Below, piece after piece: positions 7,311-24,648 of a DNA stretch of 43,841 nt. Below the pieces are notes generated by a model. That model was not told the DNA's origin, searched no databases, and was given only the letters and a program-made list of their open reading frames with translations. The translations under genes were made by a program, and so were the position numbers. This stretch comes from Hyphococcus sp. (lineage in GTDB: Bacteria; Pseudomonadota; Alphaproteobacteria; Caulobacterales; Parvularculaceae): the NCBI GenBank assembly GCA_028285645.1, contig JANQOV010000134.1, positions 1 through 43,841 on the forward strand, read 5' to 3'. Numbering within the stretch: the first letter of the stretch is position 1; each line of letters starts with the position of its first letter.

Positions 7311-9044
7311 ATGTTTGATAATCTTCAACACGAAACGGAACCGACGCAAGAGGCATCCCCCCTCCCGCAGCCCGACCCTGACTTGCAATACTTCGAACGG
7401 CTTCGCGACTATGTGCGAATGGGCCGCGTTCCATGGCGACGCGTTTCGTCATGGAAGAAGGAAGATCTTTGCAATCGCGCTTTAGTTCAGCCACGGGATG
7501 TCGGTTTCCAGGGCCGCACGCCGTTTCCGCTTCGCGCTCATAGATTCGTTTCAAATCTCGACTTTCAATCCATGCTTCGCAAGAGATTTGCAACTGAAAT
7601 AACAGAAGCGGCAATCGGCGATTTACAAAAGATCAGCCCTCATCTTTCAGCGGCAAAAGTGCTTTCAACCACGCAGCGAATTGCGCTTACAGGCCTTATT
7701 CTGGCGTTCGCTTATGCATTTGCGACTGCGCCGCTTGCGACAATCATCAGCCTTAACGCCGTCATAACGGCCTACTTCCTGTTGACGATCTCCTATCGCG
7801 CCATCTTGATAATCTTGGGCGCCAAAATAAGAAAAGCGCAGTCACTGACGCCAGCCCTCAAAGAGGAAGACTATCCCGTCATCACGATTTTGCTGCCGCT
7901 TTATGATGACGCAAACGCGCTGGCGCCCCTCACCCGTTCGATCGATGCGTTGCAATATCCCGCAGGCAAAAAAGACGTCAAACTATTACTCGAAGCCGAT
8001 GATGACGAAACCCTTGCCGAAGCGCGCCGCCTTGGACTTCACGAGAAGTTTGATGTTATCCCCGTGCCGCCGGGCGCGCCGCGGACGAAGCCGAAAGCCT
8101 GTAACTTTGGCGTGCAGATGGCTCGCGGCGATCTTGTGGTGATTTACGACGCTGAGGACCATCCCGAGCCTGATCAACTCATTAAGGCAGCCCGTATGTT
8201 CGCCGGCGCCGATCCAGCCCTCGCCTGTGTTCAGGCAAAACTCAATTACTATAACCGTGATGAGAATTGGCTCGCTCGACTATTCACCTTGGAATACTCG
8301 CTTTGGTTCGACTGGCTCTTGCCGGCCTTACAGAAACTGCGCGCGCCCATTCCTCTTGGCGGCACCTCAAACTTCTTCAAAACCGAAACGCTGATGAAAA
8401 TAGGCGGATGGGACCCGTTCAATGTAACGGAGGACGCTGATCTCGGCTTGCGGCTATCGCAACTTGGCTATCGCGTTGAAATGCTCGATTCGACCACTTT
8501 TGAAGAAGCAAACTGCGAGATTGGCAACTGGATAAGGCAGCGCTCTCGCTGGATGAAAGGCTATTTGCAGACTTGGTTGATCCATATGCGCCGCCCTCAG
8601 AACATTACGCGATCGACGGGATGGCTTGGCCTCTTGACTATTCAACTTTTTATTGCAGGCAATGTGCTCAGCGCGCTCATCAACCCCATACTGTGGACGA
8701 TCTTTGTGGTGTGGCTAGTCACGCAAGCCCAGATCATTTCGCTCGCCTTTCCAGAGCCATTGTTGACGTTAAACATGTTCGCGCTTGTTTACGGCAACTT
8801 ATTTTTCATCACCCTTGCGGTGCTGGCGCCATTCAAAAGGGGATGGTTCGGCCTTTCCCTATTCGGCCTGACGGCGCCCTTCTACTGGCTGCTCACATCA
8901 GTCGCCGCCTATAAAGCGCTATGGCAATTGATCTTCCGTCCGCATTATTGGGAAAAGACCGATCATGTGATCAGCGAAGTGGCGCAACAACGACGCCGAG
9001 AGGCGTTGGCGTATTTTCAAAACGCGCCAACACACAGCAAATAG
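7311..9044 (+). CDS. Membrane GT2 family glycosyltransferase, processive type
   Basis: This is an inner-membrane protein of 577 aa. A basic, soluble N-terminal region of about 120 residues is followed by two membrane segments (about 125-170) and a cytosolic GT-A domain. The catalytic signature is complete: acidic DDD near 229, DAED at about 280 (metal binding), TEDADLGLRL near 373, and QRSRW near 410. Four or five membrane segments follow to about residue 540. This D, DxD, TED, QxxRW set is that of processive beta-glycan synthases (cellulose, chitin, hyaluronan, cyclic-glucan types), but the sugar cannot be read from sequence. The ATG follows the upstream TAG with no gap and no Shine-Dalgarno, indicating translational coupling with the barrel-like protein. 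Confidence 0.88.
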   Translation: MFDNLQHETEPTQEASPLPQPDPDLQYFERLRDYVRMGRVPWRRVSSWKKEDLCNRALVQPRDVGFQGRTPFPLRAHRFVSNLDFQSMLRKRFATEITEAAIGDLQKISPHLSAAKVLSTTQRIALTGLILAFAYAFATAPLATIISLNAVITAYFLLTISYRAILIILGAKIRKAQSLTPALKEEDYPVITILLPLYDDANALAPLTRSIDALQYPAGKKDVKLLLEADDDETLAEARRLGLHEKFDVIPVPPGAPRTKPKACNFGVQMARGDLVVIYDAEDHPEPDQLIKAARMFAGADPALACVQAKLNYYNRDENWLARLFTLEYSLWFDWLLPALQKLRAPIPLGGTSNFFKTETLMKIGGWDPFNVTEDADLGLRLSQLGYRVEMLDSTTFEEANCEIGNWIRQRSRWMKGYLQTWLIHMRRPQNITRSTGWLGLLTIQLFIAGNVLSALINPILWTIFVVWLVTQAQIISLAFPEPLLTLNMFALVYGNLFFITLAVLAPFKRGWFGLSLFGLTAPFYWLLTSVAAYKALWQLIFRPHYWEKTDHVISEVAQQRRREALAYFQNAPTHSK

Positions 9045-9124: not shown

Positions 9125-10009
9125 ATGTCGAATTTTGCGGGGCATCCCTATTTGAAGATGAACGGGCTTGGCAATTCGTTCGTCATTTTGGATTTGCGAG
9201 GATCGGACGTTGTTGTCACAGAAGCGCAGGCCCGGCTGATAGCGGATCCCAATACAGGGCCAGGTTGCGACCAGGTCATCTCGATCGAAAACCGGCAGGG
9301 CTATGACGCGCCATTTATGGGCGTCTGGAATGCGGACGGTTCCGAAGTTGAAGCCTGCGGGAACGCCGCTAGATGCGTTGGCTGGCTTCTGATGAAGGAA
9401 TTGGAAAAGGACATAATTCAGTTTTGGACGGGCGCTGGCAAACTCAACGCCAAGAAAGTAGGCGACCTTCGCGTTCTCATCGATATGGGCGAGCCGAAAC
9501 TCCATTGGCGCGACATTCCGCTATCGGAACAAATGGACGATACGCGCTTTATAGATATTAAACTTGGACCGATCGATAATCCCGTTCTCTGGGGACCGTC
9601 AGCGGTAAACATGGGCAACCCGCATTGTATTTTCTTTGTTGAAGATGCCGAAGTACAGGCCCTTGACCGTTTTGGTCCGATGATTGAACACCATCCTCTT
9701 TTTAAGGAGGGCGCGAATGTTTCTGTTGCTGAAGTCAAAAGCGAATACGCTATTCGACTGCGCGTTTGGGAGCGTGGCGTCGGCATCACAAAGGCTTGTG
9801 GCACCGCTGCATGCGCGGCGCTTGTCGCCGCAAACCGTCGGCGTTTAACGGCGCGAAAAGCAACCATTGAACTCGACGGCGGCGCCCTTGCCATTGATTG
9901 GACCGACGATAATCATGTGTTGATGACCGGTCCGATCGAATATGAGCATGAAGGCGAACTGCCGGCGTTTTCGGACGAAACGCCTACTGGGTCGTCCCAA
10001 CAAAACTAA
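9125..10009 (+). CDS. dapF: Diaminopimelate epimerase
   Basis: It converts LL- to meso-diaminopimelate, the last step before lysine and a peptidoglycan precursor. The protein has 294 aa. The two active-site cysteines are Cys78 in ACGNAARC and Cys225 in KACGTAACAA, with MNGLGNSF at the N-terminus and MGNPHCIFF in the middle. Small departures from the common consensus (CGNAARC for CGNGTRC, and GITKACGTAAC where GAGETLACGTGAC is usual) keep both Cys. The start has a poor Shine-Dalgarno; a candidate promoter (TTGAAA at 9065 and an AT-rich ATATTG about 17 bases later) lies in the 80-base gap upstream. Its stop lies seven bases from the stop of the convergent surface-protein gene, with no hairpin between. 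Confidence 0.95.
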   Translation: MSNFAGHPYLKMNGLGNSFVILDLRGSDVVVTEAQARLIADPNTGPGCDQVISIENRQGYDAPFMGVWNADGSEVEACGNAARCVGWLLMKELEKDIIQFWTGAGKLNAKKVGDLRVLIDMGEPKLHWRDIPLSEQMDDTRFIDIKLGPIDNPVLWGPSAVNMGNPHCIFFVEDAEVQALDRFGPMIEHHPLFKEGANVSVAEVKSEYAIRLRVWERGVGITKACGTAACAALVAANRRRLTARKATIELDGGALAIDWTDDNHVLMTGPIEYEHEGELPAFSDETPTGSSQQN

Positions 10010-10016
10010 GCGCCTT

Positions 10017-12107
10017 CTATTTTATTCTCGCTCGGAACGAGACGGAAAATGTGGGGTCCGGCGCGCCCGCAAGCATATCGCCCTTGGGATTAAAGCAGAT
10101 GAACGTTACAGCGGGATCATAACCAACGATCGGCGAGTAATTACAGGCGGAAAAATTGGCTGGCGCGGCGGCATTGTTCGAATAGCCAACATCCGTTGCT
10201 TCGCTAAAGGTCAAACCGGCGCTGCTTTGACTAAAGGCGATTGCGCCGGTTTCGGGTCCGCCGCCGTCAATGTCGCCATTGTAAAACTCAATTTCCGCCG
10301 GCATGTCATCGACCATGAAGATTGAATCCGTATCAACGGGGCCGCTCCCAACATTGGTGACCGTTATTGTGTAGATGACATCTGAGCCGGGCACGGCGAA
10401 GGGTGCGCCCGTCGGGTCTTGCAGGGCGACTGTTTTGTCGCTTGTGAGCATCGCGGCGCCCTCACAGATTTGCGAATACTGAACGCCGTCAATATGCGTG
10501 CTGCCGCTTGTTCGTTGGAAGCGAATATACCGGATGCCGCCGCTGCTTGCCGTCAGACTGATGCGCTGCAGGATGTCGAGAGCGCCGGCGTTAAAATTTG
10601 TAATCGTCGTCCAGTTCACATTGTCGGCTGAAAACTCAATGTCAGCAGCGCCGGCGGCGTTATTCTTGGCAAGCGATATTTCAATGATCGCGTTTTCCGC
10701 AACCGTATCCGTTAAATCGAGAACAAGCGTTCGGTTGCCGTTATTGATGCGCGCTGAGTTTGCATTGGATGTCGGCGTCCCCGCGGCCACTGGCGCTCCC
10801 AGGGCGGCTGACGAATTCACCGCGGAAACAACTACGGTGTCTGCATAGCCAACGCTTGAGACAAGGTTTTGCCCCGCTGGGCAGGTCGGCGGCGCCGTTG
10901 CGCTGATGATCGCCTGATAGTCTTCAACTTCCCCGTCGGGAGCGACCGTTGTCGAGGCAAGCCCTGCTTGGGTGGACCACCGGAAACGCGCAAAGGTTTG
11001 GCCGATGGATGCAGTAGCCGGCGTGACAATATTGAGCTCAATCGTTCCGTTTGCCGCACCATCGCTATCCCCCACGCCGCCATCTTGTACATCCGTTGCG
11101 ATCTGATCGCCGGGCGTTGTGAAACTGCCATCGTCGTCCCAGTCGACCCATGCTTGCAGCCGACCACCTGCGCCTGCAACGGAGACATTGATTGTCGCCG
11201 ACGCGCTTTGCACAAATAACGGCAGGGCGACGCCGTCATCGCCAGCGTCGCCGCTCGCCGTCGGGCTGTCATAAGGCGCCGTTTCGATCGTGTTCGTCGC
11301 ACCCATTTGCACGCCGGCAACGATATCATGTCGTGGATCGCCGAAGCTCGATACCGGCGCATCGCCGAAGTCTTGATCGACTTGTGGATTTGGCGTTGGA
11401 AAGTTGAGGTTAGGACAATTGAAATCGAGTGAGTTCAGGCGGGTCATATTGCCCGTTCCAAGCGTGCCGACACGATATTGGAACGTACTCACATTCTTGT
11501 AGAACACCGAGACAATGTTGCCCGTTGCAGTAGGATCGATCCCCGGGGCCACTGCCGGCGTTCGCGCTTCAAAACGGATACGGCTCGAAGAGGACGGCCC
11601 CGACGCATCAACGTCAAGCTGCGTTGGGTTGTCGAGAACATACTCTGTAAGCGGCAGGGAGAATTCAGCGTATTCCCGCAAAGCAACGTTGTTGCCGTCG
11701 ATGTCGATGCCGGACGCGGTGAAATCCAAGGAGACCGGCGTTGATCCACCTGCTACGACAAACGAGATCGTAAAATCCGCACTGGCTGCGTTGTTGTTGT
11801 TCAGCTCCGGCTGGAAGTTGGCGATGAGCCCTGTGTCCCTGTCGAAGGCGTTCAGCGATCCGTTGTTAAACGCGTCGATGCTGACAAGCGCATCAACGCC
11901 GATTGCAACATTCGAGAAGCGGTAGACCGCCCCTACCGCCAATGGCGTTCCGGACACTAGAACTGGATTGCGAAAGTTAAGGACAGTGATTTGTCTTCCC
12001 TGGCATGTTGTCGTCTGCGCCGCCGCCGGGCCAACGACAAACAATGCCGCCAAGAGGCATGCGACTACCATCGTCCAATTGGCCAGACATGAGTTCATCC
12101 TCTTCAT
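10017..12107 (-). CDS. Secreted GEVED/DUF11-type surface protein, 696 aa
   Basis: This is an exported, beta-rich, acidic protein with no lipobox and no LPXTG, PEP-CTERM or other recognisable sorting tail. A signal peptide (VVACLLAALFVVGPAAAQ) leads to an N-terminal beta domain. About residues 300-400 form a GEVED-type module (WVDWDDDGSF, FARFRW, DGEVEDYQ). About 410-545 resemble a discoidin-like jellyroll (RYIRFQRTSGSTHIDGVQYS). The C-terminal 140 residues are a DUF11 domain (VIYTITVTNVGSGPVDTDS) that ends exactly at the chain end in FSVSFRARIK. Its ATG overlaps the stop of the 1692-aa gene (ATGA, 12104-12107), so it is translationally coupled to the giant barrel. Probably a surface or matrix protein exported with that barrel; function unknown. 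Confidence 0.88.
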   Translation of the reverse strand: MKRMNSCLANWTMVVACLLAALFVVGPAAAQTTTCQGRQITVLNFRNPVLVSGTPLAVGAVYRFSNVAIGVDALVSIDAFNNGSLNAFDRDTGLIANFQPELNNNNAASADFTISFVVAGGSTPVSLDFTASGIDIDGNNVALREYAEFSLPLTEYVLDNPTQLDVDASGPSSSSRIRFEARTPAVAPGIDPTATGNIVSVFYKNVSTFQYRVGTLGTGNMTRLNSLDFNCPNLNFPTPNPQVDQDFGDAPVSSFGDPRHDIVAGVQMGATNTIETAPYDSPTASGDAGDDGVALPLFVQSASATINVSVAGAGGRLQAWVDWDDDGSFTTPGDQIATDVQDGGVGDSDGAANGTIELNIVTPATASIGQTFARFRWSTQAGLASTTVAPDGEVEDYQAIISATAPPTCPAGQNLVSSVGYADTVVVSAVNSSAALGAPVAAGTPTSNANSARINNGNRTLVLDLTDTVAENAIIEISLAKNNAAGAADIEFSADNVNWTTITNFNAGALDILQRISLTASSGGIRYIRFQRTSGSTHIDGVQYSQICEGAAMLTSDKTVALQDPTGAPFAVPGSDVIYTITVTNVGSGPVDTDSIFMVDDMPAEIEFYNGDIDGGGPETGAIAFSQSSAGLTFSEATDVGYSNNAAAPANFSACNYSPIVGYDPAVTFICFNPKGDMLAGAPDPTFSVSFRARIK

Positions 12108-15100
12108 GGCGCGACATGCTCTGTTCTGTCCGGGGAAATTGCATTGAGAAGGCCTCTTGCGGTGTGTTGGTCAAACTTCACCCGCAATTGCAGAAAGGGG
12201 CCTTCGCGCGTGTATTCGGCGCCGACGAAATCTTCATCGACAAAGCCCGCAAAATTCCAGCCAAAGCTCAGCCAGATATTGTCGGCGGGCGTTACGCCGA
12301 CTGATGGCCCAAAGGAGTAGTTAATCGTTCCAGCGTTATGCGAATAAAGTGCAGATCCCCGAAGGCCGATATCGATCGCTTCGGTGATATCAAAGCGCGT
12401 TTCCGCGCCGAAGAGTTGCGTGATGCCGGAATAGGAGACGCCCGCATCGTCGATCACTGCGTATTTAAATCCGTGGTTCAAAGAAATCTGCCAGCGCTCG
12501 TCAAGCATCGCATTAAGCGCCAGATTATTGACGGCTTTCCAGCTGTTTAGCTCTCCTTGAATCTCATCCCGCTTGATGTCGAACCGGTTAAACGCGATCA
12601 GCCCTTCGCCGCGCGGCCGCCAGGCAATGCCCAATCGCGCATCGACAGACTGCCGATTGGGTTCGCGGTCATTGTCGTCAAATTGCACGCGTGCGGCGCC
12701 GGCGAGAGAAAACGCTTCACTGACTTCCCGAGCAGCGCCGAGAACGCCGGCATATCTGCGCCCTTCCTCCGATTTGCGCATTTCAAAACGGGCAGATCCG
12801 GTTGTCACTTCGCTGCGATAACCGGCGCCAATGAACACAGATGTGAAGGCGCCATTGTCCTCAAGCGGCGACACCGCTGCATCGGGCACAATGTCTTCGA
12901 CCTCACTGATGACGCCATCGCTATCAAGTTCTTCGCGTCGGCTAACGCCAAACGACCCCTGCCATTCCTTGGAAAGCTGAACCTGTTGATCAACACCAAA
13001 GGTCGCGCCGGTGCGCTGTCCTGAGTCTTGTGTGATGCGATCCGCCGAAACGGTGATATTCCCACCTGCCCAGGGCTCAGCCCTAACGCCGACAAGGGTG
13101 TTGGCGCTCGCAACATTGTCGCCGTCCTGAATTTCGTGACTGACGCTGAGCGTGACTTTTTGGTCAAAGAGCTGTTGGTCGAAACCCACTGTCGTGCGCT
13201 TTGGATACAAAACGGACTCATCGCTGACGAACACTGGCTGGTCGCGAGACGCGCGCAGCGTCAATCCAAGCTTTTCAAATGTCTGCCTAATGGCCGTCGT
13301 CGCAAGCAGCGATTTACGCTTAATAGCGTCGGCTGTGTTTTCGATGACGTAACGCAGACCAACCTCACCGGAGGTCGATGCGCTTTCCTGGCGCAAAGCA
13401 ACTTCGCTAACGGTTCGGTTGGCACCAGTCTCTAGGTTTTCCTCATGATAAGCGCGTGCGTCGATGAAACGCTCGCTGATCCTGCCAGTTTTTTTGCTTT
13501 CGGTGCGGGAAAACCGATAGTTCGCCTCAAGTCCAAACCGGCGGACGCCTGATACCGCCGAATTTTGTTGATTAAGGCCATATCCCGGTTCCGTATCGTG
13601 ATAAAAGGCTGTCGCCGTCAGGCCGTCACTGACGTGATTGATCTCCGCAAGAATGGCGTCACCCTTTTCACGCCCAAGATCGCTATCACGGCGCGAGACG
13701 CCATATTCAAGGCGCGCTTCGGTTGCTTTTGTGATGTCGAATGTGAAATCGACCGCTGCTAAATCGCTTTTGCCGTCAACGGCTTCAGGCCGGCCTTCTT
13801 CATGAATGATCGTAACACCGGTTTCTGCGCGACCGCCAAGAAACCGAAAAGCCGCACGCCCGCCGGTGGACAAGTTTCGCTGCACCGGCGCTGACGTTTC
13901 ATATTCCGCAACAATCACGTTGAAACTCGTGTCGTCATCGGCGGCGGGAATCGGCAACCGCAGAAGGATTTCACCAGTCTGAAAATCGATGTCGTAATCG
14001 AGATAGCGTGTTAGCGGCGTCGTGGATTCAATGATGTCGGGTCGGAAACGGTTACGGCTCTCGATGGTCAGTGTTTCAGAATTCCGAACCAGCGGCGCCG
14101 TTGATAGTTGATATGGACCTGAGGTTCCGTCTGCTGCGATTTCATCTCGGGCGAAATCCTGGTTTGTTTCCGCTGCAAAGCCAGTAAAGGAAAATCGCTC
14201 GCCTGCATAGATTGTCTGAAAACCAGAAAGACGGCGGGTGTACCGGCCAAGGCGCGACTCGCTCAAGCCAGTATCATAATCGCCAAACAACGCCTGAAAG
14301 ACGCCCTTCTCTGCCTTTAGATATACAGGGTACCGGCTTTGCGCTTCGAATTCCTGATTGGAGCGATCACCATAGATCGAGTAGCGTGCGTCGGGATCGA
14401 TAGCGTCAAATAGCTCATCATCCTCCTCGCCGCGCCCCTTTGCCGTGTCGCCGGCAATCGTGATCAACCAATCGCCCTTAACGGCGCCCTTGGCGAAGCC
14501 GGCGACGCGTCCATCGCGCAAAAATTCACGGGCCGGATTGGACCCTGACGCGCTGTCTTCCTGCCGTTCCAGCGAAGCCGCCCCCTCAGCAAGACCGACA
14601 ACAATCCAGTCTCTTAGCTCTGGCTTCAGATAGGTGATGATTTCTTCTCGCTGCTCTTCATCAAGCAACAGCTCAAGACGAAGCTTCCCGGTTTGCAGGG
14701 TCGGCTCAAGTTCAATCTTGGCAAGCCCGTCAGGACCGACGGCTATCGTCGATTTCGCCGACAAGGGCGCGGATATGGGCAACGTATCTTCAAGACGGTC
14801 TGTGCCTTTAGTCCGGTAGGGCGGATCGACGATAACGGAAAGTAATCGTCCTGCATGGACTGGCCGACCGGCGCCATCCGTCACGCGCACAGCGATGATC
14901 GGCGGTGTTCGCCCATCCGCGCCAAGCCTTGATTGATCCGCAAGAAACTCGGCGCGCGCCGCTTCAGAAACAAAGGTAATCACATGATCGACAAGCTCGA
15001 CTTCAGCGCCGTCTTTGTCGAGCATCACAGCAGTGAGCGTGTTCTCGCCTTCCCGCAAGTCGACGCCCCGCCATCTTGTCAGCGCCACCGTCCGTGTCAG

Positions 15101-17182
15101 GCTGACTTCACGACCGCCAAAATTTTCAATCGGTACCGGTGCACCATTCAGCAGCAGCTTTACGCGCAAATTTGCTTCGTGTTTTAGTCCGAGATGCACC
15201 GATCGCGTTGACGGCGTACGCCCAGCAGAAGGATAAGCCCAAGCGGTGTCCGGACCCTGCCGGTTTAGCCAGGCTTTGTCGTAATCCTTATATTCTGTTG
15301 CATCATCAAAAACTGCTTCACCTTGCGCCTCTTGATCACTGCTTTCATCGACCGATTGGTCTTTATTGCGGAGATAAAAATTGGCGCGCCAAACTGACCC
15401 ACCTTGCGCATCGACAAATTGCGATATGGCGCTACCCGCAAAGCGCGTGTTCTGTTCACACTGAACAGCTTCATACCTGTCGGGAATAGTGGCCGTATCA
15501 ATCTGAACAACATGTGTCCGCGCTTCAATGTCTTCAAAGTGAAATAATCCGTCTTCATCGGTGACAACGTTCGCGCCGGTCTCCATATAAAGGCGCACAC
15601 CTTCAATGCCCGTTCCGTCATTGATTTCGCGGGGCCATTCATCGTCCGGATTGCAGGCGTTTTCAGTGACCCGCCCGACAATGGTCAGTCGACTCCGGAG
15701 CAGGTCATCTTCAATGAGAACAGCGGCTTCAGCAGTGTTTGATATAGCGGCGCCGGCGCCGTTGATAACAAAAGCGCGATTGACGGCTTCTCCCAATTCA
15801 GCACCCGCTGTGATCTCAGCGACATAGGTGATTTGCGCTGCGTCTCCCGCAAGTAAGGCGCCGCCTGCGAAAGTCAGCGTTTCGCCACTGGACGCAATTG
15901 CAGGGTCGGCAATCGATGCGCCGTCACGGCGTGCGGAGCCTGCCTGATAGCGAAAACCAGACGGCATCTCATCACGTACTGACAACGTAGCGGCGCTGTC
16001 GCCGATATTCTCGACATCGATCTCATAACGGATGAAGTCACCAATCGCGCCGGTCTGCGCGGATGCTTCTTTTGTGATCACAAGCGACGACACCGGATCA
16101 AGAGGAATGTCGAAACTAACATCACCGGTTCCGTCGAGCGTGAACGTCCCAAGAAAAGACGCGTCGATGATCGTGAATGGCCCGTTCGGTAAGGCGGCGA
16201 TAGCAGCGGCGCTTGCAGTCGACGGCGCAATGTAACTTCCCGGCGTCTCGATCACGACGCGGTAATCGCCGGGGAACATGATCGGGAACCTGAATTCGCC
16301 AGGCTCCAGATCGTACAAGAGACCACTTGCATCTGTCACGCTTGATCCGGTGACGACCGTTGACGGATAAGCTGAAAAACCATCAATGCCGAAAACTTGC
16401 GCAGGCGCGCCAGAATCCGCCTCGACAATTGTCACCGTTACGCCGTCAAGCAATTCCCCAGTGGCGCTATCAAACACGCGCCCAAAGGGATCGACTCCGG
16501 CAACATCCGTCGAGATTTCTGTAAGATCAAACGGGTCTTGATATGTTGCCGTAAGATCGGAGCCGCCACCGATAGTAACAGTGTTGTCATTGGGCGTGAC
16601 AGCACCCGCATCGCTTAGAAAATACCCAAAAAAGGCGCCGGTATCAGTCCCGGTTTCATAAAGTTGGAGCGTGATTGTATCGCCAGCAGCGGAAACAACA
16701 GTTGCGGTGACGGTTTCAATCGCTGCGCTATCGCCATTTTGACCAAGATCCGCGACACGGACCAAAATCAGTTCGCCCGGGTAGTAGTTTTCGGCAAGTG
16801 TTAGATTGACCGGCCCCGAAAAATCCAAAACCTGCCCGCCCGCTGTAACGGGTGGACCAACGGGTTGAAATATAGGATTGCCGGCGGCATCAAAGCTCGC
16901 GGCGAAGTCACTACCATTGATCTGCACCGCAATTGCATCAGGCGCGTTTGGCGAATATCGGAAGAAATCAACCGTCGACGGCGTTCTTGCAGCCTCTACA
17001 ATGAAGTCCGCGGGAGGTGTTTGAAGAACCGATCGGGCGCTGGGAGGACCATAGGTGACAGTCGCAATATTCGTAACAGTCGATCCGAGCGTTGCGGCGC
17101 GTGCAGGCAAAAATGTGGCGGCGATCATAAAGATCGCAGCAAGCGCGAAGGCTGTTCCCCACATTTTTACGCTAATTTTCAC
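12104..17182 (-). CDS. Giant DUF11/Cna-B protein with C-terminal outer-membrane barrel, 1692 aa
   Basis: It starts with a signal peptide (FALAAIFMIAATFLPARA). An N-terminal beta-rich region follows, then a DUF11 domain at about 365-490 (VITKEASAQTGAIGDFIRYE), a SdrD_B/Cna-B-like fold at about 520-570 (GVRLYMETGANVVTDEDGLF), and a linker with Ig-like strands. About 830 residues from 857 to the end have barrel-type alternation. The barrel carries blocks such as FGDYDTGLSESRLGRYTRRL, AAETNQDFARDEIAADGTSG and LDYDIDFQTGEILLRLPIP, which recur in large uncharacterised proteobacterial outer-membrane proteins as I remember them. The start is GTG at 17182, with an alternative ATG six codons in. It is the middle of a three-gene minus-strand run. 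Inference: an outer-membrane platform that displays or exports the partner DUF11 proteins. Confidence 0.88.
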   Translation of the reverse strand: MKISVKMWGTAFALAAIFMIAATFLPARAATLGSTVTNIATVTYGPPSARSVLQTPPADFIVEAARTPSTVDFFRYSPNAPDAIAVQINGSDFAASFDAAGNPIFQPVGPPVTAGGQVLDFSGPVNLTLAENYYPGELILVRVADLGQNGDSAAIETVTATVVSAAGDTITLQLYETGTDTGAFFGYFLSDAGAVTPNDNTVTIGGGSDLTATYQDPFDLTEISTDVAGVDPFGRVFDSATGELLDGVTVTIVEADSGAPAQVFGIDGFSAYPSTVVTGSSVTDASGLLYDLEPGEFRFPIMFPGDYRVVIETPGSYIAPSTASAAAIAALPNGPFTIIDASFLGTFTLDGTGDVSFDIPLDPVSSLVITKEASAQTGAIGDFIRYEIDVENIGDSAATLSVRDEMPSGFRYQAGSARRDGASIADPAIASSGETLTFAGGALLAGDAAQITYVAEITAGAELGEAVNRAFVINGAGAAISNTAEAAVLIEDDLLRSRLTIVGRVTENACNPDDEWPREINDGTGIEGVRLYMETGANVVTDEDGLFHFEDIEARTHVVQIDTATIPDRYEAVQCEQNTRFAGSAISQFVDAQGGSVWRANFYLRNKDQSVDESSDQEAQGEAVFDDATEYKDYDKAWLNRQGPDTAWAYPSAGRTPSTRSVHLGLKHEANLRVKLLLNGAPVPIENFGGREVSLTRTVALTRWRGVDLREGENTLTAVMLDKDGAEVELVDHVITFVSEAARAEFLADQSRLGADGRTPPIIAVRVTDGAGRPVHAGRLLSVIVDPPYRTKGTDRLEDTLPISAPLSAKSTIAVGPDGLAKIELEPTLQTGKLRLELLLDEEQREEIITYLKPELRDWIVVGLAEGAASLERQEDSASGSNPAREFLRDGRVAGFAKGAVKGDWLITIAGDTAKGRGEEDDELFDAIDPDARYSIYGDRSNQEFEAQSRYPVYLKAEKGVFQALFGDYDTGLSESRLGRYTRRLSGFQTIYAGERFSFTGFAAETNQDFARDEIAADGTSGPYQLSTAPLVRNSETLTIESRNRFRPDIIESTTPLTRYLDYDIDFQTGEILLRLPIPAADDDTSFNVIVAEYETSAPVQRNLSTGGRAAFRFLGGRAETGVTIIHEEGRPEAVDGKSDLAAVDFTFDITKATEARLEYGVSRRDSDLGREKGDAILAEINHVSDGLTATAFYHDTEPGYGLNQQNSAVSGVRRFGLEANYRFSRTESKKTGRISERFIDARAYHEENLETGANRTVSEVALRQESASTSGEVGLRYVIENTADAIKRKSLLATTAIRQTFEKLGLTLRASRDQPVFVSDESVLYPKRTTVGFDQQLFDQKVTLSVSHEIQDGDNVASANTLVGVRAEPWAGGNITVSADRITQDSGQRTGATFGVDQQVQLSKEWQGSFGVSRREELDSDGVISEVEDIVPDAAVSPLEDNGAFTSVFIGAGYRSEVTTGSARFEMRKSEEGRRYAGVLGAAREVSEAFSLAGAARVQFDDNDREPNRQSVDARLGIAWRPRGEGLIAFNRFDIKRDEIQGELNSWKAVNNLALNAMLDERWQISLNHGFKYAVIDDAGVSYSGITQLFGAETRFDITEAIDIGLRGSALYSHNAGTINYSFGPSVGVTPADNIWLSFGWNFAGFVDEDFVGAEYTREGPFLQLRVKFDQHTARGLLNAISPDRTEHVAP

Positions 17183-17233
17183 TACTCAACTAAGCCCTTA
17201 CTGAACTCCCCAAATCGTCGCTTTTTGTGGAAG

Positions 17234-17266
17234 CGCCGCCGTATCGGCTAAACCAATACGGCGGCG
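17234..17266 (-). repeat. 11-bp perfect stem-loop between two cluster genes
   Basis: CGCCGCCGTAT at 17234-17244 pairs perfectly with ATACGGCGGCG at 17256-17266 around an 11-base loop. It sits in the 114-base gap between the 373-aa gene (stop 17297) and the 1692-aa gene (start 17182), both on the minus strand. No U-tract follows on that strand, so it is not a classical terminator. An mRNA-stability or attenuating hairpin that leaves more of the upstream small-protein mRNA than of the giant gene would fit. Confidence 0.75.
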
Positions 17267-17296
17267 ACCAAGCGATCGGGAAACACGGGGGACGCT

Positions 17297-18418
17297 TTAA
17301 CGAACGGTCGCCCTAATCGTTATCGTCCCTGTACTGCCTGCATTGAGGCTCGCTCCTGTCAAACTGACAGTGCAAGACGTGGTGCAGCCGCCGGGCGGTG
17401 TTGTGAGCGTACCCGCTGTATCAAAACCAGCTTGGGTCGCCGCAACAAAATCAACATCGTCCGGCAAGACGTCGGAGATATCGATGGCGTCTGCTGATGT
17501 AGACGCCGTAACGTCATTCGCTGCGGAGATAAGATATTCGATACATGCACCGGGCACTGCGTATTGGTTGCCCGCCTGAACCGGATCGCTCGCACATGTG
17601 ATCCCCGAAGCATCTGTTGCAATGACTGTCACGGCTTTGTTCGCCGTAAGCGCCGCCGCCGTAACATTGAAGTTTGCGGTGTCCGAATGGGCGCCGTCAT
17701 TTGCAGCGTCCGCGGTGGCCGTGCCTACGCCGTCAGCCAATACGTTCTGCGCTTCGCCGTTGAGGTTGTTGGCGCCCGTTTCCGCAACGGTTTGCGCTCC
17801 CGGCGTTGCAGAATATGCAGGATCAAGAGACGCCGTCGGATTAAGGGAATCCGCCAACAGTATGACGCCATCGCTTTGACCATTTGTCGCTGAAGCCGGA
17901 ATGTCGCCAGAGACCCTCACCCACAAGGTCGCGTCAGGCGCAATGTCTGCAGAAGCAGCGGCAGAGCCTAGCGTATAAGCGGTCCCGGCGCCGTCATCCG
18001 CGCCCGGCTCAAATACGCCATCCCCGTCGTCAACGAAAATAAGCGCCGCCAGAGACGTTGCATCGAAGTCATCGCCCGCCAAATCTTCGACGGCCAACGA
18101 ATAAGCTTGGTTGTCGTTACCATCGTTGCGAACGCGATAAACGAGTTGCTGCCCGGTTGCCCCTGGAACGACGTTCACGTCGCCCTGGCTGGCGACGGTT
18201 AGATCGACAAGACGGTCGACCGTGAATGTCGTTGGCGAACCGGAATTTGTGATTTGCGTCTGAGCGATGCCCGAAACATCGTAGTCCAGCGTAAACGTGT
18301 TGGATACAGACGTGCCGGCCGCCGTACCAGCCGCATTGGCCGCGCCAAATGCGAATACGCCAAAAAGCGCAAACGCGACAATCACCGCCTGGCGCAGGCG
18401 GTTACTTACTGTAGTCAT
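17297..18418 (-). CDS. Secreted DUF11-like repeat protein, 373 aa
   Basis: This is an exported, very acidic, Ala/Asp/Thr-rich protein with few Lys. A signal peptide (AVIVAFALFGVFAFGAANA) is followed by two beta-sandwich modules. The first is at about 65-240 (LVYRVRNDGNDNQAYSLAVE). The second is a DUF11-like C-terminal module (CIEYLISAANDV, then DISDVLPDDVDFVAATQ) ending exactly at the chain end in GTITIRATVR. Four Cys lie in the last module, probably forming disulfides. GAGGGA seven bases before the ATG supports the start. It is first in the minus-strand run of three cluster genes and divergent from a fourth small DUF11 gene. The composition looks like a surface-exposed structural protein. 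No anchor or sorting tail is visible, so export through the neighbouring barrel is my inference. Confidence 0.85.
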   Translation of the reverse strand: MTTVSNRLRQAVIVAFALFGVFAFGAANAAGTAAGTSVSNTFTLDYDVSGIAQTQITNSGSPTTFTVDRLVDLTVASQGDVNVVPGATGQQLVYRVRNDGNDNQAYSLAVEDLAGDDFDATSLAALIFVDDGDGVFEPGADDGAGTAYTLGSAAASADIAPDATLWVRVSGDIPASATNGQSDGVILLADSLNPTASLDPAYSATPGAQTVAETGANNLNGEAQNVLADGVGTATADAANDGAHSDTANFNVTAAALTANKAVTVIATDASGITCASDPVQAGNQYAVPGACIEYLISAANDVTASTSADAIDISDVLPDDVDFVAATQAGFDTAGTLTTPPGGCTTSCTVSLTGASLNAGSTGTITIRATVR

Positions 18419-18710
18419 TGTGCTTCCCTCACACCTATTAACGATGCGAGTTTGGCAATTCGTTCTAAATAAATCGCAAAGTATTGTTAGAATTGTTCAT
18501 TCCGTAAGCGCTCCATTTTGGCGCAGCTCCGGTTTAGTATGTTTAATATACCCGCTAAAGCACCGTGGCTATGACTGGTGGAAAGTTAGCCGACGCCTCC
18601 TTTGTCAACTTGCCCTCAAAGGTAAACGCGAGATTGATGTTGTTTTAACAAGTTCTTTACCGGATGCGTCGTAATCGAACCCAGCCATCAATGAGTTGAG
18701 GGTTTTTACA
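18419..18710. other. Divergent intergenic region of the DUF11 cluster
   Basis: About 290 bases of AT-richer sequence separate the minus-strand 373-aa gene from the plus-strand 156-aa gene and must hold both promoters. I see no convincing -35/-10 pair. It holds an imperfect dyad GTAT-N7-ATAC at 18537-18551, and a near-match to a CtrA box from about 18645 (TTAA, seven bases, then TTTACC; one base off the second half). Confidence 0.5.
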
Positions 18711-19181
18711 ATGCTTCGCGTTCTTTTTATGTCTCTCGCATTTACTATTGCTGCTTTTGCAGCGAACGCAGCTGTCGTCGCAGAACAAGTCGTTGAAAAA
18801 GAAATCGTGGTGCGCGACGCGGACGGAACCGATTCGATCCAGCGCGTAAAAGCCGAAAAAGTAACCCCAGGCGAACAGGTAATTTATTCCTTGCGCTACG
18901 CCAATGCAGGGAGTGATTCCGCAGACGGGGTTGTCCTTGTCATGCCCGTACCTGCAGAAGTGACCTACGTTGAAGGCTCGGTTTCCGGTTCAGAAACGCG
19001 CGTGACATTCTCAGCCGATGGCGGGTCCACCTATGTGGCGCGCGGCCGCCTTACAATCTTTGAGGATGGCGTTGAACGCGCCGCCCGGAATACTGAAATC
19101 ACCCATATTAAATGGACGCTCGAAGAGACTCTGCCGCCGGGCACCAAAGGCGAAATCTCCTATCGAGGCGTTTTGCAATAA
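18711..19181 (+). CDS. Small secreted DUF11-type single-domain protein, 156 aa
   Basis: The ATG at 18711 is chosen because GAGGG lies eight bases upstream; an in-frame TTG at 18696 overlaps that site. A signal peptide (VLFMSLAFTIAAFAANA) is followed by essentially one DUF11-like domain: a lead helix/strand VEKEIVVRDADGTD, a conserved turn VTPGEQVIYSLRYANAGSDS, VVLVMPVPAEVTYVEGS, and an end strand GEISYRGVLQ at the chain end. It is divergent from the other three cluster genes but shares their architecture, so it is likely an accessory or minor subunit of the same surface system. A strong terminator follows 23 bases after the stop. Confidence 0.85.
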   Translation: MLRVLFMSLAFTIAAFAANAAVVAEQVVEKEIVVRDADGTDSIQRVKAEKVTPGEQVIYSLRYANAGSDSADGVVLVMPVPAEVTYVEGSVSGSETRVTFSADGGSTYVARGRLTIFEDGVERAARNTEITHIKWTLEETLPPGTKGEISYRGVLQ

Positions 19182-19204
19182 GTTAGGCAAGGTCAAATGA
19201 GAAG

Positions 19205-19230
19205 GGGTGCGGCAAGCCGCACCCTTTTTT
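19205..19230 (+). terminator. Rho-independent terminator of the 156-aa DUF11 gene
   Basis: A 9-bp perfect stem GGGTGCGGC / GCCGCACCC with a two-base loop (AA) is followed by six T residues at 19225-19230. It closes the single-gene plus-strand transcript of the DUF11 cluster. Confidence 0.93.
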
Positions 19231-19810: not shown

Positions 19811-19900
19811 TGGCGGAGAGAGAGGGATTCGAACCCTCGGTACGGTTGCCCGCACAACGGTTTTCGAGACCGCCCCGTTCGACCACTCCGGCACCTCTCC
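19811..19900 (-). tRNA. tRNA-Ser, anticodon CGA
   Basis: A 90-base class II tRNA with a long variable arm, read on the minus strand. The acceptor stem GGAGAGG pairs with TCTCTCC (last pair G-U), followed by the discriminator G and an encoded CCA. The anticodon loop CTCGAAA gives anticodon CGA (plus-strand bases 19864-19866), decoding UCG. The T-arm GAGGG-TTCGAAT-CCCTC is perfect. Confidence 0.97.
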
Positions 19901-20122: not shown

Positions 20123-20758
20123 ATGTACGCAGTCGTTAAGACTGGCGGTAAGCAATACCGCGTCGCCAAAGACGATATTTTGAAGGTCGAGAAGCTCGAC
20201 GGCGAGGCCGGCGATGTCATCACCCTTGGCGATGTGCTGATGGTGGGTGAGGGCGCCGATATAACACTCGGCGAGCCCTTAGTGAGCGGCGCCTCGGTGG
20301 CGGCGGAAATCATCGAGCAATCCCGCGCCCGCAAGATCATCGTTTTCAAAAAGCGTCGCCGCAAGAATTACCGGCGCAAGGCGGGCCATCGGCAGTATCA
20401 AACCATCCTTAAGGTCACGGATATTTTGACCGACGGCGCCAAGCCAAAACAAACCGCGAAAAAACCGGCCAAGAAGAAAGCCGCACCTAAGAAGGAAGCG
20501 TCTCAAGAAGACGCCAAGAAGCCAGAGCAAAGTAAGGCTGAAGCTGCCGGACAGGACGATCTGAAGAAATTGTCAGGCGTCGGTCCCGTCTTGGAAGAAA
20601 AACTCGTCGCGGCCGACGTTACGTCTTTTGCGCAGATCGCCGCGTGGACCGAAAAAGACATCGAAGAGTTTGACGAAAAGCTTTCCTTTAAAGGACGCAT
20701 CGAACGCGAGGGTTGGGTCGAGCAGGCCAAGAAATTCGCCAAAGGCGAAGAGGAGTAA
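20123..20758 (+). CDS. rplU: Large ribosomal subunit protein bL21 with C-terminal helix-hairpin-helix extension
   Basis: A 23S rRNA-binding protein of the large subunit, 211 aa where the usual length is about 103. Residues 1-102 are a complete L21 ([14 protein letters not shown] at the start, [16 protein letters not shown] near 77-91). Residues 105-145 are a Lys/Ala/Glu linker. Residues 147-205 form a helix-hairpin-helix module ([15 protein letters not shown], then [20 protein letters not shown]) of the kind often fused to L21 in alphaproteobacteria. The extension is likely solvent exposed and may bind RNA or DNA; its role is not established. The stop is three bases from the rpmA start. Confidence 0.96.
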
Positions 20759-20761
20759 GAG

Positions 20762-21019
20762 ATGGCGCACAAAAAAGCAGGCGGGTCTTCCCGCAACGGA
20801 CGCGACAGCGCCGGTCGGCGCCTTGGCGTTAAGAAATTCGGCGGCGAGATTGTCCTTGCCGGCAATATTCTGGTGCGTCAGCGCGGCACGAAATTCCATC
20901 CTGGAGCGAATGTCGGAATCGGCAAGGACCACACGCTCTTTGCGCTGACGCCAGGCCGAGTCAAATTCGCCGCCAAACGCGGCGGCAAAAACTATGTATC
21001 GGTGCTGCCCGACGCATAA
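20762..21019 (+). CDS. rpmA: Large ribosomal subunit protein bL27
   Basis: Ribosomal protein of the large-subunit peptidyl-transferase region, 85 aa, full length. It has the conserved [16 protein letters not shown] start, whose flexible tail reaches the P-site tRNA, followed by [23 protein letters not shown] and [17 protein letters not shown]. The N-terminus begins directly with MAHKK, so it needs no processing of the Firmicutes type. The Shine-Dalgarno (AGGAG) overlaps the end of rplU, so the two genes are coupled; a strong terminator follows the stop. Confidence 0.97.
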
Positions 21020-21045
21020 GTAAATTGCGGCGATTTCCGTTTCGA

Positions 21046-21072
21046 AAGGGAAGGCGCCGCCTTCCCTTTTTT
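21046..21072 (+). terminator. Rho-independent terminator of rplU-rpmA
   Basis: A 10-bp stem AAGGGAAGGC / GCCTTCCCTT with loop GCC is followed by a run of T residues ending at 21072. The next gene starts 16 bases later, so it needs its own promoter or readthrough. Confidence 0.93.
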
Positions 21073-21088
21073 GTTTTGGAGCGCGCCC

Positions 21089-21604
21089 ATGAACTGCATC
21101 ACGACCAAGCGCTTTCGTCTGCGCCCCATTGAACGCGGTGACGCAGCGGAATTGGCCGTTCTGTGTAATGACGCGGATATAGCGCGCAACACGGCCCGCA
21201 TTCCGCACCCTTATACGCAAGAACACGCTGCTGCGTTTGTGGACTATGCGGTTCGGAGCTTGGCGAACAAGTCTGAATATGTATTCGCTATATGCAAGAC
21301 TGACGAAATTATCGGCTGTGTCGGCGTTTTCACTGAGAGCGCTGGCGTTTATGAACTCGGCTACTGGGTCGGCCAGCGCCATCGCGGGCAAGGCGTCGCT
21401 ACGGAGACTGCCATTGCCCTCGTTGAGTTCGCCTTCACGCAACTTGGCGCCGGTACCATCACGGCGGGCCACTTTGTCGATAACCCGGCGTCGCGCCGTG
21501 TCCTCAAAAAGGCGGGTTTTCATCCGACTGGCGAGGTCGTAATGATGTTTTCGACCGGACGCGGGGAGGAAGTCGAGACTATAAGATTTGTACGGAGCAA
21601 ATAA
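21089..21604 (+). CDS. GNAT-family N-acetyltransferase (RimJ/RimL-like)
   Basis: A cytosolic acetyl-CoA-dependent N-acetyltransferase of 171 aa. It opens with TKRFRLRPIERGDAAEL, typical of the RimJ/RimL branch, and has ELGYWVGQRHRGQGVATETA around residues 90-108, where RGQGVA is the acetyl-CoA pyrophosphate loop. NPASRRVLKKAGF near 130-142 is the conserved C-terminal motif. The substrate (ribosomal protein, other protein or small molecule) cannot be told. The ATG at 21089 follows GGAG by eight bases; an in-frame TTG at 21071 lies in the terminator T-run and is rejected. It is convergent with a sirtuin deacylase gene 42 bases away. Confidence 0.9.
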   Translation: MNCITTKRFRLRPIERGDAAELAVLCNDADIARNTARIPHPYTQEHAAAFVDYAVRSLANKSEYVFAICKTDEIIGCVGVFTESAGVYELGYWVGQRHRGQGVATETAIALVEFAFTQLGAGTITAGHFVDNPASRRVLKKAGFHPTGEVVMMFSTGRGEEVETIRFVRSK

Positions 21605-23456: not shown

Positions 23457-23974
23457 CTCGCTTCAATCTCGTAGTGACTTGCTTCACCGCCGAGTTGTGA
23501 CGAATAAAGGTGAAACTCTGAAACGGGGAATGGCCCGCAGGAAAACAGCCCATGCGAGGAGCAATAGCGCGCGACCGCATCCTGCCGCGCGTGTTTCAGG
23601 TAAGCGAGCGTCACATGCGGCGTAAATTTTCGTCTTTCAAGCTCAAACCCGGCACGCCGCATAGCCTGCTCGACTTTCGACTGCAGATGATTAAGCGCCG
23701 GCGACACTGCTGCGCCCACCCAAAGAGCACGAGGGTTTTTATCGCCAAAAAAGCCAAGTCCCGACAGGGTCAATTCAAAGGCCGGCGCTTCAATCTGCGA
23801 GAGCGCTTCGACGGCGCTGGCGAATCCGTGCCGGTCGGCCTCGCCAATGAAGGCGAGCGTCAAATGAAAGTTCTCCGCCGGTCGCCAGCGCGCGCCCTCA
23901 ACACCGGACTGCAATGTTGATAATGCATCCGCAACAACTTCCGGAATTTCGAGCGCAACAAAAAGACGAGGCAT
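23432..23974 (-). CDS. thpR: RNA 2',3'-cyclic phosphodiesterase (2H family)
   Basis: A cytosolic member of the 2H phosphoesterase (LigT/ThpR) family, 180 aa. Both catalytic motifs are present: His37 in HLTL and His120 in HVTL. It hydrolyses 2',3'-cyclic phosphates on RNA ends and can ligate 2'-5' in the reverse sense. MPRLFVALEIP at the N-terminus and SEFHLYSSQLG near the end are typical. It lies 62 bases downstream of the peroxiredoxin-like gene on the same strand and overlaps the phosphatase gene tail-to-tail by 25 bases, so the two mRNAs would be antisense at their ends. Confidence 0.94.
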   Translation of the reverse strand: MPRLFVALEIPEVVADALSTLQSGVEGARWRPAENFHLTLAFIGEADRHGFASAVEALSQIEAPAFELTLSGLGFFGDKNPRALWVGAAVSPALNHLQSKVEQAMRRAGFELERRKFTPHVTLAYLKHARQDAVARYCSSHGLFSCGPFPVSEFHLYSSQLGGEASHYEIEASYALSSSR

Positions 23975-24036
23975 GGGGCCGCTTCAAGCAGGATGCGCCT
24001 AATCCGTCAATCGACCGGCTACGCGCACGGCAGGTT

Positions 24037-24558
24037 TCAGGGGCGTTCGCCTCGGGCTGGGTAATCATGCTCAAGCGCATAATCGATGGCGCCAATAAGT
24101 TGGTTGAGCGGCGGCCTGGTAAAAGGCATCGATTGAATCGAGGCGAAGTAAATCGTTCCGTCGGGACGCACCAGAAAAAGACCGGGTTCGGAGAAAATAT
24201 CAGGCTCGTTCTCCTTGATGCCGGCGGATATATAAAGCCCCCAGGCTCGCGCCGTTTCTTCGTCGAGGCTATGTCCAAGGGTTACGTCGCTTATTTTCCA
24301 TGTTTCCCGAACCTTTTTCCATCGTTCCTTGTCGTCCATGGAAACCGCAATCGCGTCAACGCCCCGTTCTGTGAGCTTCGGCAAATGTTTGTTGATATCT
24401 TCAAGCTGGCCGCGGCAGATCGGGCAATGAAGGCCGCGATAAAAAACGACGAGTGTAAAATTGTCAGGCCTTTGCACCGACAACGTCCACTCCCCATGTT
24501 GCGTTTCCACCGAAAGCGTCGGCGCAGGCGCGGCGGGAAGCGGCTTCGATTGCGTCAT
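24037..24558 (-). CDS. Peroxiredoxin-like (AhpC/TSA superfamily) protein
   Basis: A thioredoxin-fold protein of 173 aa in the peroxiredoxin-like family with a CxxC active site, Cys45 and Cys48 in YRGLHCPICRGQL, followed by VDAIAVSMDDKERW and LGHSLDEETARAWGL. These families reduce peroxides or act as thiol oxidoreductases; the CPIC form differs from classical AhpC (PxxxTxxC), so the exact substrate is uncertain. The ATG at 24558 is preferred over an upstream in-frame start at 24573 because GAGGAGA sits about seven bases before it. It is divergent from the SDR gene across 90 bases and upstream of thpR. Confidence 0.9.
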   Translation of the reverse strand: MTQSKPLPAAPAPTLSVETQHGEWTLSVQRPDNFTLVVFYRGLHCPICRGQLEDINKHLPKLTERGVDAIAVSMDDKERWKKVRETWKISDVTLGHSLDEETARAWGLYISAGIKENEPDIFSEPGLFLVRPDGTIYFASIQSMPFTRPPLNQLIGAIDYALEHDYPARGERP

Positions 24559-24648
24559 GTGTTTTCTCCTCAATGGCGGTGTTGCTCACTGCCAGCCAAT
24601 ATGGATACTGCCGCAAATACCGCAACCCAAACCAAAGAGACGCCGCCC

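Follow-up and report, generated by a model that had tools for sequence, protein, structure and literature searches.

The window analysed here, a stretch of 43,841 nucleotides from the alphaproteobacterium Hyphococcus sp. (contig JANQOV010000134.1 of assembly GCA_028285645.1), contains a cassette of four genes that encode a giant protein of 1692 amino acids (aa) and three smaller proteins of 696, 373 and 156 aa that look exported; the four open reading frames (ORFs) are real, as an earlier note made from the DNA letters had read them. On the evidence of sequence comparison, we consider it fairly probable that this cassette is a surface-fibre system that works by donor-strand exchange on the giant, barrel-like protein, without a known chaperone. 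A further-reaching possibility, toward which we are somewhat more doubtful than favourable, is that such cassettes make sortase-free covalent adhesive fibres, again without a known chaperone, in several Gram-negative classes. Each joint would be a CLIPPER domain shared by two proteins, with Lys and Asp in the groove and Asn on the donor; an undescribed outer-membrane barrel of more than 30 strands would give the first strand, and the tips would be interchangeable, ice-binding ones included.

A divided DUF11 domain

The case starts from the DUF11 domain, which a 2025 survey renamed CLIPPER after solving the structure of one such domain, in which Lys and Asn form an isopeptide bond and an Asp is presumed to be catalytic (PMC12617251). 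The profile of the giant family aligns with this structure (9IFR) at E 4e-5, with Lys, Asp and Asn all aligned, and it is on 9IFR that the triad assignment rests. The giant's internal DUF11/CLIPPER domain (residues 367-491; 15710-16084, minus strand) is complete and has the triad at the 9IFR positions, namely Lys371, Asp404 and Asn468, each present in 82 of the 82 aligned giants (the aligned sequences are related, and the counts given throughout are not independent events). The C-terminal DUF11 domain of the 373-aa protein (residues 257-373; 17300-17650, minus strand) has no complete triad: it keeps Lys261 and Asp316, lacks the last two strands and ends before the strand of the Asn, and an invariant Asn40 is found instead in an N-terminal donor-like segment (residues 31-67; 18218-18328, minus strand). 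Asn40, Lys261 and Asp316 are each conserved in 72 of the 72 members of the 373-aa family, and Asn40 is invariant also in a second alignment that holds 55 of the 72 rows. From Asp316 to the end the 373-aa protein has 57 residues (family median 69), which is approximately where the Asn strand should start.

The early end is seen with more than one model. The whole 373-aa protein yields no Pfam match; its C-terminal 121 residues alone match Pfam DUF11 (8.5e-5, 23.3 bits, cut-off 24.6), and this match stops at position 84 of the 114 in the profile, a single residue short of the C-terminus. The C-termini of five 373-type proteins behave in the same way, with matches that end at position 83-84 of 114, at most two residues from the C-terminus. 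With an independent DUF11 model of 147 positions, built from 22 DUF11 domains of other genomes, 26 of the 72 373-type matches extend to the C-terminus, every one of them ending at positions 96-97; 7 of 67 156-type matches and 0 of 13 tip-type (696-type) matches reach the C-terminus, those of the 156-type ending at 95-97, and the giant's internal copy extends to at least position 140 in 74 of 82 cases. The C-terminal DUF11 domain of the accessory proteins stops before the last strands and, therefore, the Asn is missing.

So could any other part of the cassette provide this residue? Just after the signal peptide (signal peptides of the cassette proteins were judged by eye), the 373-aa family starts with a segment like G-T-x-V-x-N-T that carries Asn40, and the giant begins with a like segment (residues 31-62; 16997-17092, minus strand) in which Asn38 and Ala40 are invariant (82/82). 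The N-termini of the two families are homologous (hhalign 97.5%, E 5e-12). The donor pattern is present in 70 of 72 373-types and 54 of 82 giants, in none of 13 tips and in 2 of 67 156-types; among the controls it was found in 7 of 855 other ORFs and in 3 of the 99 secreted-like ones.

Joining the proposed donor and groove

Donor-strand exchange calls for an incomplete immunoglobulin (Ig)-like fold together with an N-terminal strand that fits it, and on this point the sequence anatomy and the joining of the two parts agree in part. When the giant's N-terminus is joined to the C-terminus of the window's 373-aa protein, the Pfam DUF11 score rises from 23.3 to 30.3 bits (+7.0), and joining five 373-type C-termini to their own N-termini changes it by +2.1, +4.6, +4.1, +0.3 and +4.2 bits. 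In the controls on the 373-aa C-terminus, the N-terminus of the 156-aa protein adds 1.7 bits and hand-scrambled tails give -0.4, +0.7, -0.4, -5.0 and -1.4 bits. Under the independent DUF11 model, joining raises the score by 5 bits or more in 18 of 72 cases with the own N-terminus and in 20 of 72 with that of the giant, compared to 12 and 16 of 1440 shuffles, respectively; the same gain is reached by 2 of 62 156-type N-termini and by 0 of 72 mid-domain segments. The segment does better than all of its 20 shuffles in 21 (own) and 27 (giant) of 72 cases, where about 3.4 are expected. Furthermore, among the joined alignments that include the donor Asn, this residue coincides with the Asn column of the model in 51 of 59 (own) and 65 of 69 (giant), and the giant's internal Asn468 occupies the same column in 80 of 82 sequences.

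Other models give a more mixed picture. A DUF11 model derived from the giants registers a gain above 5 bits in 13 of 72 joins with the own N-terminus and in only 2 of 72 with the giant's, compared to 10 of 1440 shuffles. The profile of the giant's N-terminus matches the giant's DUF11 at E 7e-4, better than the controls. A hidden Markov model of the last two DUF11 strands has its top match in the N-terminal part of 34 of the 67 373-types with a match (72 searched), at low scores; it exceeds 5 bits in 16 of 72 sequences compared to 16 of 1440 shuffles, and gives -1.2 bits on the N-terminus of the window's own protein.

The giant protein and its partners

From the N- to the C-terminus, the giant (12104-17182, minus strand, GTG start) consists of a signal peptide, the donor-like segment, an Ig-like and a CnaB-like part, the complete DUF11/CLIPPER domain, further CnaB-like and Ig-like parts, and a large barrel-like half; Pfam detects the DUF11 domain (1.3e-9) and two carboxypeptidase-regulatory (CnaB-like) matches, both below the cut-off. 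The earlier note had proposed an outer-membrane-barrel-like region and structure prediction as its check, and the AlphaFold2 model of residues 496-1692 (46 sequences) indeed shows a barrel-like fold, with a mean predicted local distance difference test score (pLDDT) of 82 and a predicted template modelling score (pTM) of 0.77. In this model, 32 consecutive long strands span residues ~1087-1670 and 7 more precede them at ~887-1016; the barrel-like region comprises residues 887-1670 (12173-14524, minus strand). A Foldseek search of the barrel against the PDB gave 149 matches at E <=0.001, and all of the 50 listed matches (of 1197) have template modelling (TM) scores of at most 0.29. Most of these 50 are outer-membrane barrels, such as MtrB, TonB-dependent receptors, SlpA, FimD and LptD, and unrelated large beta proteins are also among them, including non-membrane proteins such as ApoB100 and glycoside hydrolases. 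The prediction thus supports a barrel-like C-terminal half of at least 32 strands, without a close solved fold.

The stretch ~858-1101 of the giant is present also in shorter proteins annotated as TonB-dependent receptor, and the shorter relatives of the barrel family carry the annotations TonB-dependent receptor, DUF11 or hypothetical protein. At a locus on a Devosia plasmid (L104), a 1118-aa 'TonB-dependent receptor' with the conserved 858-1099 stretch lies near a separate SdrD B-like gene of ~2680 aa, as if stalk and barrel were two genes. The giants of five loci (L034, L042, L044, L052 and L056) have ~200 or more extra residues C-terminal to the barrel, ending in a common domain with a motif like FMKxCGNYxYxC, for which a periplasmic location is expected.

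In the 696-aa protein (10017-12107, minus strand), Pfam detects a GEVED domain (PF20009, 3.8e-13; residues 317-398, 10914-11159, minus strand) and a sub-threshold DUF11; its C-terminal acceptor-type DUF11 domain (residues 552-696; 10020-10454, minus strand) has Lys558 and Asp600, and this Lys and Asp are kept in 14 of 14 tip-type rows. The rest of these proteins varies: among ten tip-types scanned, GEVED was found in 4, CshA_NR2 in 2, the proprotein-convertase P-domain in 2 (a third below the cut-off), DUF6923 in 1 and an ice-binding domain in 2, and two of the ten had nothing but DUF11- or CARDB-like domains. The tip-type genes with the ice-binding (DUF3494) domain directly follow the giant gene in a Zetaproteobacterium and a Burkholderiales metagenome-assembled genome (MAG) (L065 15106-16317 and L073 14674-15828; Pfam PF11999, E <1e-56), which suggests that their ligand is ice or another solid. 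The 696-type proteins can be compared with the tip adhesin FimH in the C-terminal groove, the lack of a donor and the variable adhesive head. Given this anatomy (an acceptor, no donor and variable adhesive domains), we propose that they are what would be expected of a tip adhesin. The 156-aa protein (18711-19181, plus strand, ATG start at 18711; an alternative TTG start gives 161 aa, 18696-19181, plus strand) is a single DUF11-like domain (Pfam DUF11, 1.8e-6) that ends early and has neither a conserved isopeptide Lys/Asp nor the donor motif.

Conservation and distribution of the cassette

The genes are conserved together as a cassette, beyond chance. The relatives' loci examined are the best 80 of 530 candidates from the alignment of the giant protein, and come from Parvularculaceae, Marinicaulis, Hyphomonadaceae, Robiginitomaculum, Hellea, other Caulobacterales and many Sphingomonadales, along with one Zetaproteobacterium, one Burkholderiales MAG and Desulfosarcina. 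A 373-type gene is present in 76 of the 80 loci, in 73 of them less than 600 bp from the giant, and many sphingomonads have a second one; in three of the four loci without it (L047, L059 and L097) the giant lies at a contig edge, and in the fourth (L068, Desulfosarcina) two other genes occupy the place. The 156-type gene is found in 66 of 80 loci; five of these genes lie on the opposite strand and two are located downstream of the giant. The 696-type gene is found in 13 of 80, so that a constant role for the GEVED protein has to be rejected. Conservation of the four-gene order was a check proposed in the earlier note; the 373- and 156-types regularly accompany the giant, the 696-type is not constant, and the 156-aa gene of the window is divergent. 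No further constant neighbour was found beside the cassette in the relatives, where the neighbours were clustered and not scanned with Pfam.

In a sample of 289 genomes of the class, the giant query matched 10, six of these over local segments only; the 373-type profile matched 4 of the 289, the same four as the strongest giant matches, and none of the six genomes with weaker, local giant matches. Neither of the findings that the note had named as fatal to its idea emerged, a structure prediction without a barrel or cargo proteins that occur with other known secretion genes and never with the giant. In a sample of the phylum Pseudomonadota, 56 of 398 genomes had a match to the barrel profile at E 1e-20, and 35 of these 56 matched at least 868 of its 1189 positions, some with in-frame stop codons. 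Seven further loci came from the phylum search (L145-L151), of which L148 turned out to be L065 again; when these loci were read the giant of L149 was missed, and in the six in which a giant was seen, small 373-type proteins precede it and a 156-type is present in 4. L145, L146, L147, L148, L150 and L151 each have one or more small proteins with the early end at model position 96-97, and the donor motif with Asn recurs in the giants of L147, L148 and L151. The same roles are recognisable in an alphaproteobacterial relative (L134) and on an Acinetobacter plasmid; both giants have the donor Asn, and the plasmid cassette includes an additional OmpA-family gene. The groove-donor pattern recurs, in part, in loci of other families and on this plasmid.

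Within the genus, the cassette was found in 3 of 23 other genomes. In the stretches retrieved from the three carriers, the cassette has one of the window's flanks next to it (rplU in 1, dapF in 2) and the other flank does not appear; in a one-contig genome of a non-carrier, dapF and rplU are ~4 kb apart without the cassette, which suggests that it has been gained and lost at one genomic site.

The rows behind the counts are as follows. The 82 giants come from 78 of the 80 loci, three further genomes and the window; L047, L059 and P0008 were excluded as incomplete. The 72 373-type rows are 76 tblastn finds minus L035, L051, L069, L081 and L088 (cut, frame-shifted, or the second paralogue picked), which leaves 71, plus the window's own. 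For the 156-type, L027 (a contig-edge fragment) and L061 (a mis-hit) were removed from 68 finds; five finds of the 696-type (L069, L075, L080, L089 and L092) proved to be 373-type paralogues and were excluded, as was L056, which is cut, from the 13 tips of the donor-pattern count. L148 is identical in sequence to L065, and so is L155 to L024.

Weighing the hypothesis

The support for a fibre built by strand exchange comes from sequence and is uneven, and a number of findings weigh against it. The gains from joining vary, and their median is negative with both in-house models (-0.7 own and -0.3 giant under the independent one), a probable reason being that local alignments tend to end within the variable central part of DUF11. 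The 696-aa C-terminus, the match of which stops short of the end, gains nothing from joining (20.9 bits before, 19.6 after); the giant-derived model places the window's Asn40 one column off; and the 373-type N-terminal profile fits the giant's DUF11 (E 0.018) no better than one of three control segments does (0.011, 0.12 and 0.35). Both N-terminal profiles pair with the last DUF11 strand, not with the strand of Asn468, and another Asn lies within the last 25 residues of 33 of 72 373-types, although none is conserved at 75%. Outside the main set of loci, the donor Asn is replaced by Ser in the giants of L145 and L150, the giant of L146 has no such motif, and a 310-aa partner in L147 (the start of which is possibly wrong) also has Ser, so covalent welding cannot apply to all joints of all lineages. 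Finally, a frame with a weak usher-like match exists elsewhere in the window's genome (G000, contig C87, 37948-38910; 25.4 bits, 29.2 with its neighbours, in an 856-aa frame), possibly as part of a separate chaperone-usher system.

Structure prediction brings in the most serious competitor. The AlphaFold2 model of the 373-aa monomer has a mean pLDDT of 91, and residues 31-72 are above 90 without any partner, so the donor-like segment may pack on its own chain; such a confident N-terminus would fit intrachain packing and a preformed hairpin alike. With Lys261, Asp316 and Asn40 all within one chain, the 373-aa proteins could be circularly permuted monomers, each filling in its C-terminal DUF11 domain with its own N-terminal segment; they would be compact and internally crosslinked, form no polymer and bind the giant in some other way. 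We regard this as unlikely, given that it leaves unexplained both the same segment in the giant, whose internal DUF11 is complete, and the tips, which have an early-ending domain and no segment (13/13). The Foldseek matches of the 373-aa model, to an integrin and other Ig-like proteins, place the donor-strand pilins SafDAA-dsc and CfaB no higher than 48 and 49 in rank.

Less likely still is a barrel-anchored adhesin with an Ig-like stalk, around which the small DUF11 proteins would form a coat or an S-layer-like shell, non-covalently and without strand exchange. DUF11 is common in fibrillar adhesins and proposed S-layer components according to the survey (PMC12617251), and Foldseek weakly relates the barrel to the SlpA S-layer complex, among others, but a coat gives no reason for the common truncation point or for the complementary N-terminal segments. 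That the giant is a secretion pore which exports the small proteins as free cargo without a structural role, as its large barrel-like fold and the close genomic pairing might lead one to think, is highly improbable because the homology of the giant and partner N-termini indicates a structural joint and not passage alone.

Fibre assembly by strand exchange thus remains the preferred hypothesis, and the following chain of events would be compatible with it. The 373-aa protein would be the repeating subunit, with its N-terminal segment filling the C-terminal groove of a neighbour; from the conserved anatomy, we are reasonably inclined to believe that these subunits exchange strands head to tail. 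The 696-aa protein, which has a groove and no donor, would be the adhesive tip, and the giant, with a donor and no terminal groove, would be the base, its barrel in the outer membrane, such that the fibre leaves the cell through or beside this barrel. Since Lys and Asp remain in the groove and the Asn comes with the donor, the joints may weld spontaneously, the triad being completed between subunits without a sortase; going by the residue patterns, covalent welding appears to us conceivable although rather less probable than the strand exchange itself. The 156-aa protein, a groove without reactive residues, might be a reversible cap, or a chaperone that holds the donors until assembly, and this assignment is the weakest part of the scheme. 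The idea of a membrane platform with filament subunits or cargo, put forward in the earlier note, keeps its frame, because the giant is predicted to be barrel-like and the 373- and 156-types are its regular genomic partners; what does not survive is the notion that the DUF11 partners are simple cargo, given that their domains stop early and are complementary to the N-terminal segments of the 373-aa protein and the giant. No published description of this gene set was found in the open-licence literature searched. If true, the hypothesis would mean a new route to a covalent fibre, with the reactive triad divided between neighbouring subunits, and a function for a large unnamed outer-membrane family, and would supply natural protein-coupling pairs.

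Genomic setting

On the minus strand, the genes come in the order 373-aa (17297-18418), giant, 696-aa, and the start of the last overlaps the stop of the giant by 4 bases; the 156-aa gene is divergent on the plus strand, here and in 5 relatives, and therefore a single four-gene operon has to be rejected. In the divergent intergenic region between the 156-aa and 373-aa genes (18419-18710), no consensus promoter was found, the promoter scan giving 5 observed against 4.8 expected. A strong terminator-like hairpin (19199-19230, plus strand; a 14-pair stem with a T run) lies 3' of the 156-aa gene. The flanks are ordinary genes, dapF (9125-10009) and tRNA-Ser (19811-19900), followed by a frame at 20123 that we take, from its sequence, to be ribosomal L21-like. 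In the window's own genome (87% complete), there are 3 DUF11 matches at E 0.001, all of them cassette proteins.

Elsewhere in the window, two long frames, 23914-25536 (540 aa) and 20573-21523 (316 aa), have no Pfam match at E 1e-5. A gene for a membrane glycosyltransferase of family 2 (7311-9044) adjoins dapF, and no match to it was found beside dapF in 2 of 5 non-carrier congeners compared.

Comparison with known systems

Several known assembly systems can be set aside. Sortase-assembled pili are rejected, with PF04203 in 0 of 4 genomes compared to 3 of 14 control genomes (the window's genome being 87% complete), and so is the classical autotransporter (type Va), the giant having no listed match to the 12-strand PF03797 and at least 32 modelled strands. 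The type XI secretion system is rejected as well, no DUF560 barrel match being listed for the giant. The usher (PF00577) is likewise rejected, with no match for the giant listed at E up to 1 and FimD chains at TM <=0.24 among the listed fold matches, and no PapD-type chaperone was found among the 17 window proteins scanned with Pfam, a part of the window's frames. A remote kinship with SprA of the type IX secretion system is conceivable, although Pfam lists no SprA match up to E 1 and the 50 fold matches listed of 1197 do not include it.

Type V fimbriae also exchange strands and do not belong to the chaperone-usher class, and the folds and platforms of type V and TasA-type fibres are unrelated to those of the cassette. 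For TasA-type fibres, too, donor-strand exchange outside this class is reported (PMC9674648). According to a 2021 paper, Gram-negative fimbriae are assembled non-covalently (PMC7835359), and in the texts consulted no covalent joint is described for type V or TasA-type fibres, which sets them apart from the joints proposed here.

The nearest precedents of the proposed fibre are archaeal threads and chaperone-usher pili. With the chaperone-usher (type 1) pili, the cassette as read here would share a groove-only tip, a subunit with donor and groove, an outer-membrane barrel and incomplete Ig-like folds (see also PMC9715654); it differs in the DUF11 fold, in which apparently two strands are missing, and in that the giant itself bears a donor-like segment. 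In the threads of Sulfolobus (Saci_0406), an N-terminal donor strand lies in the head domain of the neighbour and an intersubunit isopeptide bond has been proposed, between the N-terminal amino group of Asp24 and Asn57 two subunits away, and no sortase is known in the thread-making archaea, according to the account available (PMC9715654). The likeness to the present proposal thus lies in strand complementation together with a sortase-free intersubunit isopeptide bond, whereas these archaea have no outer membrane and the candidates in the cassette are the Lys, Asp and Asn of the DUF11/CLIPPER fold. A counterpart of the N-terminal Asp of the threads is rejected: Asn40 is invariant, and no Asp precedes it among the columns conserved at >=75%.

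The CLIPPER domains of fibrillar adhesins are described as intramolecular stalk domains of one chain (PMC12617251). They belong to the same domain family and have Lys, Asp and Asn at the same positions, as aligned to 9IFR, but in the cassette the triad is divided between the C- and N-termini of the subunits. This division also has an engineered parallel. SpyTag/SpyCatcher was made from a CnaB domain, with part of the reactive residues in the groove partner and the last one in the strand partner; the same division of residues is proposed here as a natural split of a CnaA-like domain.

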